A DNA stretch of 64,000 nt. It comes from an uncultured Sporosarcina sp. GTDB taxonomy: Bacteria > Bacillota > Bacilli > Bacillales_A > Planococcaceae. Every line of letters starts with the position of its first letter. Position 1 is the stretch's first letter. The stretch is from assembly GCA_948469885.1 (NCBI GenBank), contig CAOKMT010000009.1:1-64000 (forward strand). Direction: 5' to 3'. The notes beneath the pieces are model-generated. The model saw only the letters and a program-made list of their open reading frames with translations, did not search any database and was not told where the DNA came from. This document shows, in pieces, positions 35,829 through 48,900 of this stretch. The position numbers and the translations under genes were made by a program.

Positions 35829-35852
35829 CCTGCTTTTATAAATTAAAAAGCG

Positions 35853-35942
35853 CGCCACTTCCCTACGCCGGTGCAAACCGGATCAGGTTCCAAGAGTCCG
35901 CGAATTCACGCATCTCAGCCTATGAAAAGCTCCTCTAGTGGT
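35853..35942 (-). promoter_or_regulatory. TPP (thiamine pyrophosphate) riboswitch aptamer
   Basis: Minus strand carries the THI-element landmarks in order: a P1 arm with CCACTAGAGGAGC, GGCTGAGATG (35918-35909), GAACCTGATCCGGTTTGC (35891-35874), ACCGGCGTAGGGAAGTGG (35873-35856). CTGAGA and ACCTGAT-GGTTNNNACCGGCGTAGGGAAG are diagnostic of the TPP aptamer. It is followed by a terminator and the thiD remnant/thiE. Confidence 0.95.
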
Positions 35943-36045
35943 TATTGAAATATTCAGCTTACTATACACTATAACACATAAAAAGGAAATTCGGGAAAAA
36001 TAAGCATGCATATTACAACTTTTCCAAAAATTGTTACCATTTTGT

Positions 36046-36612
36046 TCACTTATTCATTTGCGCCAAAAAATCACCAAGAGGATCCGCTTCTTCCTCTTCT
36101 TCAACCGTCGAAGGAGAAGTTTCTTTTATTGCAGTCCAATCAAAATGATCGAGATCATCATCCGTGCTTACCTCAAACGTTGTTTCTTTGCCACTTCCCT
36201 CTTCAAGCGAAGCAGTCATCTCATATTCTTCAAGGCTACCTGCTTCTTTTTGATAAAAAGCCTCCTCCGCTTCAACCGTGTCACCATTCAATGATGCAAA
36301 TAGAGAGGCTGTGCGAATCGGGTCGGCCATAAGCTGATACACAATACTTCCTAAAAGTGCTTCGGATTGCTCGTGCTTCAACCAATCCCGCTGCGCTTTA
36401 TTTAATCCTTTCGGAAGCGGAATTGTGATGACTTCATTATGACTCAAGAAGGAATCATTCACGCCGTCCATGACAAACTTGGCAATTTTACTTGAGAAAT
36501 TTCTTCTTTCAACATCTTTCAGCTTTTGTAATTGCCTCAGTGTATGATCAGTTGTATCCGACGGGATGCGGAATGTAATAGGTTGTCCTCTTTTCAAACC
36601 AGTTTCTTGCAT
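36046..36612 (-). CDS. ParR-like ribbon-helix-helix DNA-binding partner of the actin-like ATPase
   Basis: A 188-residue protein. Residues 8-50 look like a ribbon-helix-helix: strand RGQPITFRIP, then helices TDHTLRQLQKLKDVE and FSSKIAKFVMDGV. A second conserved-looking helical part (IPLPKGLNKAQRDWLKHEQSEALLG, shown as a core) follows, and the last 80 residues are acidic and probably disordered, ending LGDFLAQMNK. Its place 11 bases after the ParM-like gene matches plasmid parM-parR cassettes, in which ParR binds centromere repeats and the filament tip. No family name is certain. Confidence 0.8.
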   Translation of the reverse strand: MQETGLKRGQPITFRIPSDTTDHTLRQLQKLKDVERRNFSSKIAKFVMDGVNDSFLSHNEVITIPLPKGLNKAQRDWLKHEQSEALLGSIVYQLMADPIRTASLFASLNGDTVEAEEAFYQKEAGSLEEYEMTASLEEGSGKETTFEVSTDDDLDHFDWTAIKETSPSTVEEEEEADPLGDFLAQMNK

Positions 36613-36623
36613 GAATGCTCACC

Positions 36624-37808
36624 CTATTTGGTTGCCACCGTTTTTTCCTTTTCAGGCTGCTTAACTTCCCGATTTTTGTTCACAAAATCTGTGATTAATT
36701 TATAATACGCGTTCGCCATCATCCAAACGCTTTCTTTTTCGTCCTCAAAAAAGTCAATGTTATAGCCGTCCAAATTATTGTTCAACGCTTTCAAATAATC
36801 TTTCAGAACGATGGACCCTCCACCGATGAAATAACATATTTCTGTTTGCGAGTTTCTCGCCCAAATATTTCGCAGATGACGGTATTGCTTTTTCGCCAAT
36901 TCCAAAAGAATGCGATCGACGATTTCATGAACACTTGTCCGGCTTCCTTTCACCATAATATGGTTCCGGTCATTTTTCTTCGTGATAATTTCTACAACGT
37001 CCGCACGACTATCCAACTCCACCCCATACTTGGAGAAGATTTCTTCTCGAATGGCATCAAGGGATTCCGAAACGCCCAAATTAAAGCCTTGCGCTTTATC
37101 ATCGTCTACCCTGCGGTTCTGAATCACCGCGACATCTGTCGACAAGCCACCGATATCTTGAATTAAAATCCGCTTATCAATTAACTCCTTGTTCACGACA
37201 TTCAAATTATTATCCATCACAAGATTGATAAATGCCGCAAACCCTTCCGGATACACTTTCACTTCGTCAAATTTAATATTTACTTTCAAACCTTGATACT
37301 TCGGCGTCACCAAAAACTCCACTTGGTGGACAGATCCAAGCAATTGGGAACGATACCCGACATCTTTCCCTTCCTTCACTTCTCTAAGCGGGAGGCCTGT
37401 GCCTAATGTATACGTAGCCTCGATGACATTGTTGGAACGTTTAAAAATCGCCTTATTTTCTTCGCGAGCTGCATCTAATGCCAATGCGGCCAACAACATG
37501 ACAATCGTTTGGTCTTCCTCCGATTTATTGCTTCCCGGATCCAACTCCGTTGCATTCCCACTTTTCGTAGCCAACTGACCGACACGGTAAATCGCGTTGT
37601 TCTCTTGTAAGATTGGTGAATGTAAGCGGATATGAATCCCCTCGGTCGCTTCTTGTTCATCTAAATCTTCGACGCCGATAATAGGACGATCCGCGGTATC
37701 TTGCGCAATCACATTCGGAATATGCAAATCCGCTTCCAACTTCCCGAAAATCGCTTTTAATGAATCATTTCCTACATCTATGGCTGCAATACGTGGCTCT
37801 TTCAACAT
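36624..37808 (-). CDS. ParM/AlfA-like actin-family ATPase
   Basis: A 394-residue actin-fold ATPase. Phosphate-1 is AAIDVGNDSLKAIFG (residues 9-23), phosphate-2 is IQDIGGLSTDVAVI (216-229), and the adenosine motif is FIGGGSIVLKDYL (327-339), the pattern of ParM/StbA and Alp proteins and not of MreB or FtsA. Such proteins polymerise to separate plasmid copies. The start is ATG 37808, preceded by GGGGGAGG and a good promoter; the frame continues upstream without homology. It is followed by a RHH gene and preceded by a repeat array. Confidence 0.85.
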   Translation of the reverse strand: MLKEPRIAAIDVGNDSLKAIFGKLEADLHIPNVIAQDTADRPIIGVEDLDEQEATEGIHIRLHSPILQENNAIYRVGQLATKSGNATELDPGSNKSEEDQTIVMLLAALALDAAREENKAIFKRSNNVIEATYTLGTGLPLREVKEGKDVGYRSQLLGSVHQVEFLVTPKYQGLKVNIKFDEVKVYPEGFAAFINLVMDNNLNVVNKELIDKRILIQDIGGLSTDVAVIQNRRVDDDKAQGFNLGVSESLDAIREEIFSKYGVELDSRADVVEIITKKNDRNHIMVKGSRTSVHEIVDRILLELAKKQYRHLRNIWARNSQTEICYFIGGGSIVLKDYLKALNNNLDGYNIDFFEDEKESVWMMANAYYKLITDFVNKNREVKQPEKEKTVATK

Positions 37809-37844: not shown

Positions 37845-37873
37845 ATAGTACAGGAAACTAGCGAGTCGGTCAA
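37845..37873 (-). promoter_or_regulatory. Promoter of the parM-parR-like operon
   Basis: Minus strand -35 TTGACC (37873-37868), 17-base spacer, -10 TACTAT (37850-37845), 37 bases before the ATG. The repeat array begins 35 bases upstream of the -35. Confidence 0.75.
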
Positions 37874-37907
37874 TCTTGTGTAGGGAACTGTTAGACAAAT
37901 GTCATGA

Positions 37908-38061
37908 TGTTTACATTTTTGTAAACTTAGAATTATCGAAACAAAGTCGATTGCCGTCGAATGTGTACGTGTTTGTAAACATGTATACAAATTTGTATAC
38001 AATCACACTATTAATGTGTACATGTTTACAATTTTGTTTACATGTTTATATTTTTGTATAC
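37908..38061. repeat. Phased TGTNTAC repeat array, candidate centromere/operator
   Basis: Eleven TGTNTAC-like heptamers start at 37908, 37920, 37962, 37974, 37982, 37994, 38015, 38023, 38035, 38043 and 38055 (TGTAAAC at 37920 and 37974, TGTTTAT at 38043, otherwise exact). Start-to-start distances are 12 and 8, giving 20-base periods, broken only between 37920-37962 and 37994-38015. The 12-base steps have an A-N-TTT filler, and the 8-base steps form an ACATGT junction. It lies directly upstream of the ParM-like promoter. Confidence 0.88.
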
Positions 38062-38113
38062 AGTGGAAAAAACAATCCGTTTTCTATTTGTAATAATTCA
38101 TTTTTTTCCTACA

Positions 38114-44629: not shown

Positions 44630-45685
44630 TCATTTTCCCTCGAAACTCGTACGCTTCGGTTTCAAATCAATGGAAGGCCGTGCTGTTTTTTGGAGCAGCG
44701 GCTTAACATCCTTAAAAGTGATGAATGTCTTTTCCTCAGGATTGTATAAGCGATACTTAAGAGATTCCACACTGGTTTTAATGGTGATCGTCGTTGCATT
44801 ATGAAGTGGCGGTGTTGATTCGTGAGCCGCTTCCAGATTGTAGTTCGGCACACGTGGCGCCAAATGATGGACGTGATGGTAACCGATATTACCCGTAGCC
44901 CATTGTAGAATTCGTGGCAATTTATAATAAGAACTGCCATCCACAGCGGCTTTCACGTAGTCCCATTCAGACTCCTCTTCAAAATATGAGTCTTCAAATG
45001 TATGTTGGATATAAAACAGCCAAATACCAAGCGCACCGGCGACAAACATAATCGTCCCTTGGATGAGAAGAAACGCTTGCCAACCGACAAGGAGAATCAT
45101 CGCTGTATATAAGAGCACAATGATCACGTTTGTCAAATACGTATTGTTCCGCTCTTTCTGTCTAGCATCTTTCCGATTGAATCGACTGGAAATGAGGACG
45201 AGATACAACGGACCGAGCCCGAACATAACGAGCGGATTTCGGTAGAGTCGATAGGCAAACCGTTGCCATTTTGAAGCCTCTACATATTCGTCGACGGTCA
45301 TGACCCAAATATCGCCGACACCGCGCTTATCGAGATTTGAACTCGATGCATGGTGGATCGCATGCTCTCGTTTCCATTTTGCGTAGGCGAACAATGTAAG
45401 CACACCTGTGATTGTCCCGACAATATCATTTGCTTTTCGGCTTTTGAAAAAAGAGCCATGTGTACAGTCATGAAAGATGATAAATGTCCGAACCACAAAG
45501 GCTGCAGCAACAATCGCAAACGGGAACATCAACCAAATTGACAGTGACAAACTTTGATAAGCTAAAAACCATAATATAAAGAAAGGGGGTATCGTATTAA
45601 TTAATTGAATAACACTTTTTCGTTGATCCGACTTGGCAAAAGAGGCGACATCCTTATGCAATTTTATCGTTTTTTCTTTACTCAT
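44630..45685 (-). CDS. des: Acyl-lipid delta-5 fatty acid desaturase Des
   Basis: A membrane-bound di-iron desaturase, 351 residues, B. subtilis Des size. Three His boxes are visible: HDCTHG (H-x3-H type), EHAIHHASSSN (H-x2-HH) and YHHVHHLAPRVPNYN (H-x2-HH). Six hydrophobic segments. Ribosome site AAGGAGG. It introduces double bonds into membrane phospholipid acyl chains after cold shock; regulated by the adjacent DesK-DesR pair. Confidence 0.94.
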   Translation of the reverse strand: MSKEKTIKLHKDVASFAKSDQRKSVIQLINTIPPFFILWFLAYQSLSLSIWLMFPFAIVAAAFVVRTFIIFHDCTHGSFFKSRKANDIVGTITGVLTLFAYAKWKREHAIHHASSSNLDKRGVGDIWVMTVDEYVEASKWQRFAYRLYRNPLVMFGLGPLYLVLISSRFNRKDARQKERNNTYLTNVIIVLLYTAMILLVGWQAFLLIQGTIMFVAGALGIWLFYIQHTFEDSYFEEESEWDYVKAAVDGSSYYKLPRILQWATGNIGYHHVHHLAPRVPNYNLEAAHESTPPLHNATTITIKTSVESLKYRLYNPEEKTFITFKDVKPLLQKTARPSIDLKPKRTSFEGK

Positions 45686-45734
45686 TTGGGATCCTCCTTA
45701 CAATAATAACTTCACCTGATCTGTTTCGTACATT

Positions 45735-45801
45735 TATAATAACCCGCGGAAAACGTTTACAGTAGGCATAGATGTCATAAGTGTAAGATGACAAATGTCA
45801 T
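45735..45801 (-). promoter_or_regulatory. des promoter with palindromic DesR-type site
   Basis: ATGACA-AA-TGTCAT at 45788-45801 is a 14-base inverted repeat, with another TGTCAT half at 45773-45778. Downstream on the minus strand is a promoter-like pair, TGTAAA and TATAAA (17-base spacer) at about 45735-45763. An activator site upstream of the -35 fits DesR. The exact DesR consensus was not checked. Confidence 0.6.
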
Positions 45802-45911
45802 ATGTTGTGAGGTGCTTCACAAATGAGCCGACATGAAGGGATAATAATTAGGGAAGTCCGAACGAATTTCAGTGTCCCGGTGCTTGTCATTCCCATCACA
45901 ATCCTGAAAAT

Positions 45912-45951
45912 GGAAAAGCCCCGTAATCCAATGATGGACGACGAGGCTCTT
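45912..45951 (-). terminator. Adhesin gene terminator
   Basis: AGCCTCGT...ACGGGGCT stem (GC-rich, one mismatch) with a TTTTCC tail on the minus strand, 33 bases beyond the adhesin stop. Confidence 0.7.
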
Positions 45952-45983
45952 CTTAGTTTTCACAAATTCATTTAAGCAAATGC

Positions 45984-48900
45984 TTATACTTTTCTTCTTT
46001 GACGGAATAAGATCACGCCACCTGCTGTTAGGAATAAAAGGCCTAAAGCAATCATGTACATGAATTGTTCCTCACCCGTCTGTGGAAGTTTGTTGGAAGA
46101 ATCGACATTTTGATCCGGCTGATCTGGATCGATACTTCCGCCAGTACCTGGTGCATTCGGATCTTCTGTTCCATCACCTGGTTGACCCGGTTGGTTCGGA
46201 CCCTTCACCCCATCGTCTGGCTCACCCGGCTCGTTCGGATCTTCTCCGTCATCTGGTTTGCCCGGTTGGTTTGGATCTTCCGGATCAACTGGCTCTTCCG
46301 GCTCCTCAGGTACTTCTGGGTTGATTGTGGCTGTACAAGAATCGGTTACTGTAAGGGAACCCATATTTTTACCTTGTACATAAACCTCATAGTTCCCTTC
46401 CAAAATCGGCTTGTCGAAAACGACTTTGCCTTTCGCATCCGTCTTGCCTGTTGCTACTGTGTTGCCGTTCTTGTCTTTTAACACTACATCGGCATTCGGT
46501 GTATCTGTCACTGTCAATGTAAACGTTTCACATGCTTTCGGATTCAAATCGATCTCCGCTGCACACTTACCTTCCGTATACGTGACCGTAATTGTTCCCA
46601 CTTCTTCGCCGTTTTTATCGTACGCTGTGTACGTGCCTTCTGGTAAATCTTCTTTGTCAAAGACAATCTTCCCATTGGCATCTGTTTTGCCGACAACTTC
46701 CGTCGTACCTGACTTCAACGTCAATTCAACGTTCGAACCGAGCGTTTTCCCTTGTTCCTTCACTGTCACCGTAAACACTTCACATGCTTTCGGTACGATT
46801 GGGTTCAAGTCAACTTCCGCCCGACAGTCATTGTAATCATACGTCACTGTGACTGTTCCAACGTTCGTGCCGTTTTTATCGTACGCTGTGTACGTACCTG
46901 CGGGTAAGTTCTCTTTGTCGAAAACAATTTTACCATTCGCATCCGTTTTGCTGAAAATATCCGTCGTTGCCGATTTCAACTTCAACTCCACGTTCGAACC
47001 GACTGTCTTACCTTGTTCTTTCACAGTTACCGTGAAGACCTCACATACTTTCGGATTCATGTCGATTTCCGCTTGACAGTCGGCCTCTGTGTATTTCACA
47101 GTAACCGATCCGACTCGGTCATTGTCTCCGTCGTATACCGAGTATGTGCCCTCTGGTAAATCAGCTTTGTCGAAGACGATCTTACCGTTCGCATCCGTTT
47201 TACCGGAAACTTCTTTCGTCTCCGATCTCAATGTGAATTCAGCATCCGCATCCAACGCCTCGCCGTCTTCCTTCACAGTAAGTGTAAACACATCACATGT
47301 TTTGGGTGGTGTAGGTGGTGTTCCCCCGCCGCCCCCGCCGCCAGATGAGCGCTGTCTCACTTCTGCATAACACTCGTCTGTGACAGTAAATGAGTTGACG
47401 AGGCGAGTCCCTTCATACACGCGGTATGTGCCTGGTCCAATGACAGCGTTTAGCTCAACTTGGCCATTGTCGTCTGTCACAGCTTTCTCTATCGTGTTTC
47501 CATTTAAATCTTGAACAGTTATTTCGACGCCAGCTTCACGTGGATTATTGCCTCTGTCTTTAACAGTTAACGTGAATGTTGGACAACTTGGCGCATATGT
47601 GACTTGCGCTTGACAATCATCTTTGTAACTCACATTGATTTCACCAAGCAAGAAGTTCCCTTCGTATACATCATACGTTCCTGCAGGTAGGTCTGATGAA
47701 GGAATTTGGATCTTACCATCAGAATCCGTTTTTGATGTTGCAATGTCATTTCCTTCTTTATCCTTCAGTGTTACCTCAACATTAGGGCGTCCTTCGCCGT
47801 CTGGAACATTTTCGGTAACTGTAATTGTAAAGACGTCACACGATGGTGCTGGTTGGACCTCATCTAAACAGTCGTCATAATTGACAGCGATGTCATCAAT
47901 TTTAGTTTCTTCCAGTCCATTAATTTCAAAAACTTCATATGGACCATTCGGTAATTCTTCGCGGTCTATCATCACTTTACCTGTTCCAGTTGTAGCAACT
48001 GCCAACGTTTTTCCTGTATTTTTGTTTACCAACTTCAATTGAACTACTTCTTCACGGAGCTCGCCGTCTACATCTTTCACAAGTAATGTAAAGTTAGGAC
48101 AAGTTGGCCCTTCATACCCCTCTTCGTAGTTTGCAATCTCGACAACTTGCTTGCCAGCAAACGGTCCGCTTTCTTCTCGTTCATCGTAATCAAGCATAAA
48201 TTGAATTGGACTTGGGTTTGTATAACCCTCAACATCCCCTTCAACGAGTGTGTACACTCCTTCAGCCATTTCATAACCAAAGTCAAGGACGCCATTTGCA
48301 TCCGTCTTACTTGTGAGCAATTCTTTGCCATTTTTGTTCAACAGAGTAAACTCGACATCCTTCATCAAGCTTCCAGTCGCCCCGTCTGTTTTAACAATGA
48401 TAAATTTTGCCGCACGTGTACCTGCATCACTTCCATAGTTGAAGGATACTTCGGAAACTGCGTCACTACCCGTTTCTTCAACCTCCGTGAAATACTTCAC
48501 TTCCACTTCGTTTGAAATTGTTGAACCCTTGACACCTATGAACGTGGACTCGTATTCGATAAAGTACGCCCTATCTGTATCACCTAACGTTAAGATAAAC
48601 GCATGATCAGGATCATCGAACTTTACGTCATACGCTCCTTTATCCAAAAGGACTCGATTGTTAATCGACGAACTCGTTCCATTAAAATTTACTTCATAAA
48701 CCTTAAATGAGTCTTGGTCGATTATTTGATTCGGTGCGCCATTATCTAAACCAAATGTGTCTGTGATGACGACATCTTTCAATGCTGATTGGGCATTATT
48801 AAATTGGAAATTCCATTTGATGCTCATTGTATTGCCAATTTGTAATCCAGTCTTATTTTCAAGCACTTTTTCGGTATGCTGAACTGTGACTGTTTTTTCC

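Follow-up and report, generated by a model that had tools for sequence, protein, structure and literature searches.

A phased palindromic array beside a chromosomal, origin-proximal parM-parR cassette of Bacillales is a candidate ParR-type centromere and operator

We analysed a 64,000-nucleotide stretch of DNA (hereafter the window) from an uncultured Sporosarcina sp. and found that an array of short palindromes within it belongs to a widespread family of parM-parR cassettes that is chromosomal and lies close to the replication origin. The original prediction, made from the window alone, had proposed a ParR-type centromere placed beside the operon promoter. That is still the best reading, given a neighbouring ParM/Alp7A-type homologue, a parR-like gene adjoining parM in all 81 loci compared and an array conserved along with both; the prediction had missed the wider setting, a widespread chromosomal family near the origin rather than a plasmid system. 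What computation shows is the array itself, how it is conserved and linked to parM and parR, where it lies relative to the origin and how old it is, as well as, from a weak model, the fold of ParM. As an overall explanation we favour, with moderate confidence, that the array is the cis-acting site of a cassette that positions DNA, chromosomal and of type II (actin, ParMRC-like), and linked to the origin.

The array (37908..38062) consists of eleven 8-bp boxes with the consensus TGTATACA and the core GTNNAC, and is proposed to serve as parC and operator. When the letters were rechecked, each of the eleven box starts given originally (37908 to 38055) was correct, and so were the spacings of 12, 42, 12, 8, 12, 21, 8, 12, 8 and 12. 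Closest to the promoter is a two-box pair (37908..37927; starts 37908 and 37920, 12 apart). A four-box block with 12-8-12 spacing (37961..38003; starts 37962, 37974, 37982 and 37994) is the top match to our family array model (46.3 bits, E 2.2e-13, minus strand), and a five-box block with 8-12-8-12 spacing (38015..38062; starts 38015, 38023, 38035, 38043 and 38055) forms the parM-distal end. The motifs first used to describe the array fared less evenly. The heptamer TGTNTAC strictly fits eight of the eleven boxes, but 37920 and 37974 read TGTAAAC and 38043 reads TGTTTAT; ACATGT occurs at all three 8-base steps, but the A-N-TTT filler at only three of the five 12-base steps. The 8-bp palindrome TGTATACA describes the boxes better, with the core GTNNAC in 10/11 and no more than two mismatches in 11/11. 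Ten such cores fall within the 171-bp array stretch, against a mean of 1.4 and a maximum of 6 in 2000 dinucleotide-preserving shuffles of that stretch, and the densest 171-bp span elsewhere in the window holds four. The array is real and far above chance expectation. TGTNTAC is also locally enriched at ~45.4-48.3 kb of the window, inside a repetitive gene (45400-48400) that looks surface-protein-like by eye; broader use of the heptamer in the window was rejected once the local excess had been traced to this gene.

The gene order is array, promoter, parM and parR-like gene, with the operon on the minus strand, which places the array 5' of the ParM-like gene, as had been predicted. Between array and parM lies a promoter-like, sigma-A-like sequence, TTGACC-17-TACTAT (37845..37873, minus strand), whose -35 element is 34 bp from the last box. 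On Pfam and homology evidence, parM (36624..37808, minus strand) encodes a 394-aa actin-like protein in which ALP_N and Alp7A_like_C both score above cut-off. Homology and the ribosome site led us to place its start at the ATG at 37808, although the longest frame opens further upstream, with a TTG at 37898. TTG rather than ATG is apparently the parM start codon in 11 of the 17 loci from the same genus, window included in the 17 (e.g. L002:1501). An AF2 model of the protein, of low confidence (mean pLDDT 52.3), ranked ParM structures first in a fold search of the PDB, led by B. thuringiensis ParM (E 2.3e-15) and including Dh-cParM1 (E 9.8e-12), at TM 0.4-0.5; pCBH ParM, Alp7A, pSK41 ParM and R1 ParM were the other leading matches. 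By its domains, and by a fold that this weak model suggests, we class the window protein as a ParM/Alp7A-type actin homologue and predicted ParM-type NTPase.

The parR-like gene (36046..36612, minus strand) encodes 188 aa. It has a conserved N-terminal strand-helix-helix segment and an acidic, variable linker, and ends in a conserved tail, for which the family consensus is DLLGDFLAQMNK and the window version DPLGDFLAQMNK. This conservation pattern was drawn from 81 homologues, and a second comparison covered 41 of these. The AF2 model (mean pLDDT 57.8) places helices at residues 22-34 and 39-50 after an extended segment, and a C-terminal helix at 178-187; the N-terminal arrangement is the one that a ribbon-helix-helix (RHH) protein would have, and makes an RHH fold plausible. 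The model returned no significant match in the fold search, and the protein matched no Pfam family at a trustworthy score and no PDB profile significantly, the best RHH-type profile being Arc (E 0.083). A TPP riboswitch (RF00059, 77.7 bits; 35843-35946, minus strand) adjoins the downstream end of parR and apparently serves thiamine genes further on.

Relatives of the cassette were collected in two overlapping sets that have eight loci in common. Within the genus, 17/68 genomes carry a window-type parM at >=84% identity (window's genome counted), and the same 17 carry parR; any parM match at all was found in 24/68, the remaining seven being only 21-30% identical. A scan of named genomes gave 230 parM relatives, of which we retained the best 80, at >=76% identity. 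The array stands upstream of parM in all 17 same-genus genomes and in 80/80 retained loci (the best 80 of 230), where the 520 bp upstream of parM hold 8-21 boxes, against ~1.3 in shuffles. Across 81 loci, 919 core-bearing boxes gave the consensus T-G-T-A-T-A-C-A, four positions of which were fixed beforehand by the GT..AC core used to pick the boxes. Box-to-box spacings of 12 (261 cases) and 8 (180) dominate, followed by 13 (56) and 10 (46), and the box distances follow a 10.5-10.75-bp period. A sigma-A-like promoter could be recognised in 64/81 loci, and in these the last box mostly lies near 15, 24, 34, 44 or 54 bp from the -35 element, that is, in ~10-bp steps, with outlying gaps of 0 bp once and 73 bp twice; through shared ancestry, the loci behind this gap and behind the box period are not independent draws. 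Box clusters in 1.68 Mb of parM flanks occur only upstream of parM, adjoining it in 80/81 loci and lying 0.75-2.75 kb further upstream in ten, one of them by chance: a cluster at -2743 in locus L033 was set aside as looking like a chance match. One or two extra arrays stand ~0.75-1.5 kb upstream, away from the promoter, in 9/80 loci; most have the same phasing (L071 is irregular), and some sit in extended regions that lack any large open reading frame.

All 35 plasmid records that match parM do so at below 60% identity (best 44%), those on pBM69, pSJ52 and the P. polymyxa and B. subtilis plasmids at ~39-43%. In 7/7 of the plasmid loci examined, out of 35, parM is followed by a parR-like gene, which matches the chromosomal ParR profile with E-values, calculated for the set of seven, between 8.5e-5 and 3.7e-32. 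Their promoters carry few boxes, TGTATACA-like in two plasmids, TGCATACA- or TGCAAACA-like in four and unclear in one. The original prediction had suggested a scan of related plasmids for the same 12/8 array; we found none within 600 bp upstream of parM (554 bp in one) in these seven of 35. These Bacillales plasmid cassettes resemble the chromosomal ones in their downstream parR-like gene and in having related boxes near the promoter (6/7), but differ in the small number of boxes, the lack of a long 12/8 array and another ParR C-terminal tail. As far as examined, the long array is therefore a trait of the chromosomal family.

The plasmid promoters bear on an operator-only account, according to which ParR uses the array to repress its own promoter and ParM filaments serve something other than DNA cargo, such as cell shape, sporulation or another scaffold. 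Few such boxes around a promoter, as in the plasmid relatives, together with an array that abuts a sigma-A-like promoter at a helically phased distance from the -35 element, are what this account leads one to expect. The 8-21 boxes of the chromosomal loci, however, exceed what an operator needs; the plasmid relatives examined manage with few near the promoter; nine of 80 have further arrays ~0.75-1.5 kb away; and operator function needs no place near oriC. We consider the account unlikely.

The array proved to be tied to parM. A sequence-only array model built on the 12-8-12 block, with 150 candidates scored per genome, so that weak sites may be missed, matched at parM in 25/25 parM-bearing genomes. 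Arrays in other regions without a parM gene, which the original prediction had named as evidence against itself, were rare: in the same 25 genomes the model matched away from parM in three places only, one on a plasmid-like contig (E 4.8e-6) and two weaker ones on chromosomes, with E 4.8e-4 and 0.0084, and 10/11 parM-less relatives had no match, the eleventh having a single weak one (E 0.004). An operator of an unrelated regulator was rejected on these grounds, as the array tracks parM-parR and is absent from ten of the eleven parM-less relatives. One chromosomal case is a second phased array with 20-12-10-12-8 spacing (E 0.0084), in a genome labelled Sporosarcina globispora (G072:C18, ~450.2 kb; L174:5151-5220); it lies ~171 kb to the right of dnaA, with parM 107 kb to the left, and is a single case.

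The match on the plasmid-like contig (G663:C12, 22 kb) is a three-box 12-8 mini-array (L172:8430-8457), and the host also has the cassette on its chromosome; no parM was found among the frames listed within ~5.5 kb of the mini-array, and the contig is possibly hitch-hiking on the host ParMR. Phage records gave two partial, weak parM matches, and viral contigs gave three parM relatives, one at 34% identity and two, identical to each other over 7.1 kb, at 74%. The latter two (L182:2992-4134 and L183; IMG/VR, 86 and 116 kb) have three TGTATACA boxes just upstream of parM and no parR right after it, the next frame being a 616-aa ORF. An incompatibility or defence role, in which chromosomal ParR and array titrate or destabilise box-bearing plasmids, or plasmids hitch-hike on host ParMR, can draw on this mini-array, on the two IMG/VR contigs and on the TGTATACA boxes of two of the seven plasmid relatives. 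The cases are few, however, and such a role leaves both the origin proximity and the high prevalence in one family unexplained; we think it quite improbable.

In a sample of the class, parM matches at E 1e-60 or better came from 32/398 genomes; 24 of these, among them the window's genome, are at 74-100% identity, and the other eight at 38-44%. In the order, 38/254 match, 37 at >=77% and one at 35%. In the GTDB family of genome G491, 152/186 genomes match at E 1e-150 or better, each of them once, and at least six among the matches listed hold one in-frame TAG inside the matched stretch. The cassette is dispensable, since it is missing from 51/68 same-genus and 374/398 class-sample genomes. Where present it appears to be old. 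At fourfold-degenerate sites the window parM is 23-36% identical to 13 relatives, chance identity being 23-26% (worked out for four of the 13 pairs), and the proteins are 77-87% identical. Near-saturated fourfold sites and a conserved protein together imply long divergence under strong constraint, and recent horizontal spread is not favoured, with all 13 pairs near saturation. The ParM tree groups the window with seven Sporosarcina and one Filibacter (100/99), which makes Sporosarcina or a close neighbour its probable genus. Genus labels on the tree require 35 changes, the least possible being 20 and the shuffled mean 51.9; they cluster well beyond shuffles, imperfectly. Two loci labelled Pseudomonas sp. 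ISL-84 (L051) and Bacillus subtilis DE0224 (L104) carry window-type parM and group in the tree with Cytobacillus and Neobacillus respectively; their labels look doubtful.

These data nearly refute the idea that an integrated plasmid or phage left the cassette behind, as a remnant or a passenger, and that its partition genes have persisted on the chromosome. It would fit the fact that the closest non-chromosomal relatives are mostly Bacillales plasmid parMR cassettes (35 records, at most 44% identity), the 74% parM on two IMG/VR contigs and the in-frame TAG in at least six among the matches listed. It does not fit near-saturated fourfold sites with strong protein conservation, single matches in 152 of the 186 genomes of one GTDB family, the clustering of genus labels, the place near the origin, or the finding that the cassette is not accompanied by any gene family typical of plasmids or phages.

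In neighbourhoods of up to 10 kb per side (shorter at contig ends), parM and parR are present in 81/81 and the next family in 37/81, so the neighbouring genes are not conserved. Yet parM stays near the origin. In all 21 mapped contigs of >3 Mb, a count that leaves out single-contig genomes seen only in the 186-genome GTDB family search, parM lies 35-417 kb (0.6-9.5% of genome length) from dnaA and reads away from the origin; it is on the left arm in 19 and on the right arm in two, both from one genus. In two more genomes parM and dnaA share a shorter contig, 32 and 68 kb apart, and in genome G199 they are on different contigs. Among 49 draft genomes, dnaA is on parM's contig in 33, against 3.6 expected at random placement; in these 33 parM is always on the left, 39-263 kb from dnaA (median 82 kb), and in the other 16 dnaA is not on parM's contig. 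One of these 16 drafts (G650, locus L078) has dnaA near one end of a 3.05-Mb contig that includes the left arm, and parM on a 114-kb contig, and therefore counts against a strict left-arm rule. Six actin-like genes served as controls. Measured from dnaA, three distant ParMs (38-44% identity) lie ~10%, 35% and 47% of the genome away, and three actin-like genes in complete same-genus genomes ~7%, 21% and 41%, so that 2/6 of the controls, too, are within ~10%. The genome of the window, a draft, is outside the mapped set, and its ParB genes are on another contig. The origin proximity could reflect an inherited place rather than function.

Gene order, phased palindromes, the conserved ParR tail and the predicted ParM fold point to a ParMRC-type machine. 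Binding of the array by ParR is, in our judgement, very probable. That the array acts as an operator, with ParR regulating its own expression, is likely, a view favoured by its helical phasing against the promoter. We also think it probable, with somewhat less assurance, that the array acts as a centromere-like site; such a role is favoured over operator function alone because of the array length, the second arrays and the origin linkage. The chances are even that the site serves the origin of the chromosome and not a different cargo. In the proposed mechanism, one ParR dimer would occupy each 8-bp palindrome, and the 12/8 phasing would set the boxes near one helix face (20- and 42-bp periods), allowing successive ParR dimers to build a continuous scaffold. 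This scaffold would silence the adjacent promoter and capture ParM filament ends through the conserved ParR C-terminal tails. As the cassette lies near oriC, growing filaments would move the origin region or keep it in place, and the cassette would work alongside the ParB-type system of the same cells.

A broader proposal, which we advance tentatively and rate a little below an even chance, is that many Bacillales have a second, actin-driven system for chromosome segregation or origin positioning: an origin-linked ParMRC with a conserved palindromic centromere, beside the ParB system, in most genomes of at least one family. It may have been overlooked perhaps because the model B. subtilis, to our knowledge, seems to lack the cassette. 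A single-copy, conserved, origin-linked cassette with a conserved centromere-like array, in cultivable, mostly spore-forming bacteria, lends itself to direct tests by deletion and imaging. Such a cassette is also a clean case in which to ask how palindromes in helical phase could be read by a ParR adaptor, and by what route a segregation module of plasmid type could have joined a chromosome.

ParMRC of the actin type is seen as a machine of plasmids. Alp7A of pLS20, likewise a plasmid system, resembles the window ParM in its Alp7A_like_C domain, which scores above the Pfam cut-off here, and is among the fold matches, but is only 15% identical in the fold alignment. Two ParMRC features, an actin-fold ParM-type protein (as predicted) and an iterated site beside the operon promoter, are present in our cassette; residence on a low-copy plasmid is not, as dnaA is on parM's contig in 21 contigs of >3 Mb. 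Because dnaA shares the contig and the plasmid relatives are below 60% identity, we file the cassette as a chromosomal variant rather than as a plasmid ParMRC. The plasmid systems of R1, pSK41 and C. perfringens pCW3, as described in the available passages of PMC9426499 and PMC5016525, share with it the order array, promoter, actin-like gene, small DNA-binding gene (here predicted), the repeats upstream of parM and the ParM fold; unlike them, the present cassette is chromosomal and near oriC, and its boxes are 8-bp palindromes in 12/8 phase. All ParRs characterised up to 2022 bind direct repeats, according to the accessible text of PMC9426499; the later Cb-cParC has three palindromic repeats (PMC12270681, in part).

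Chromosomal ParMs as such are already published. The passages of PMC12270681 at hand characterise Dh-cParM1 and Cb-cParM, report ParR binding to a cparC of three palindromes in C. botulinum, state in a legend that a conserved cparC was not identified across the Clostridium strains, and describe Bt-cParM (Bt-cParM1/2 of B. tropicus) as conserved on several Bacillus chromosomes; we found no discussion of place relative to oriC in those passages. Dh-cParM1 and Cb-cParM resemble our cassette in being chromosome-encoded ParMs with a ParR, the Cb system also in its palindromic cparC (here a candidate) (PMC12270681, same passages), and Dh-cParM1 differs in its 17% identity to the window ParM in the fold alignment. 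What appears to be new, set against those passages, is an origin-linked, array-bearing Bacillales family, and the open-access literature, without supplements, yielded no description of one.

ParABS (Spo0J-parS) is the origin-proximal chromosomal centromere system of Bacilli. Our cassette differs from it in having an actin-like motor instead of ParA and no ParB, and in its clustered array, parS sites being dispersed in the sources available to us. It consists of parM and a parR-like gene only, with ParB genes elsewhere. Replacement of RacA was considered too, but the RacA model does not discriminate here: its matches, weak and in 3/25 genomes, are all below cut-off, and so is that of the B. subtilis control. 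ParB-family genes are present in 25/25 genomes examined, with or without parM, which rules out replacement of ParABS; the cassette would therefore be an additional system.
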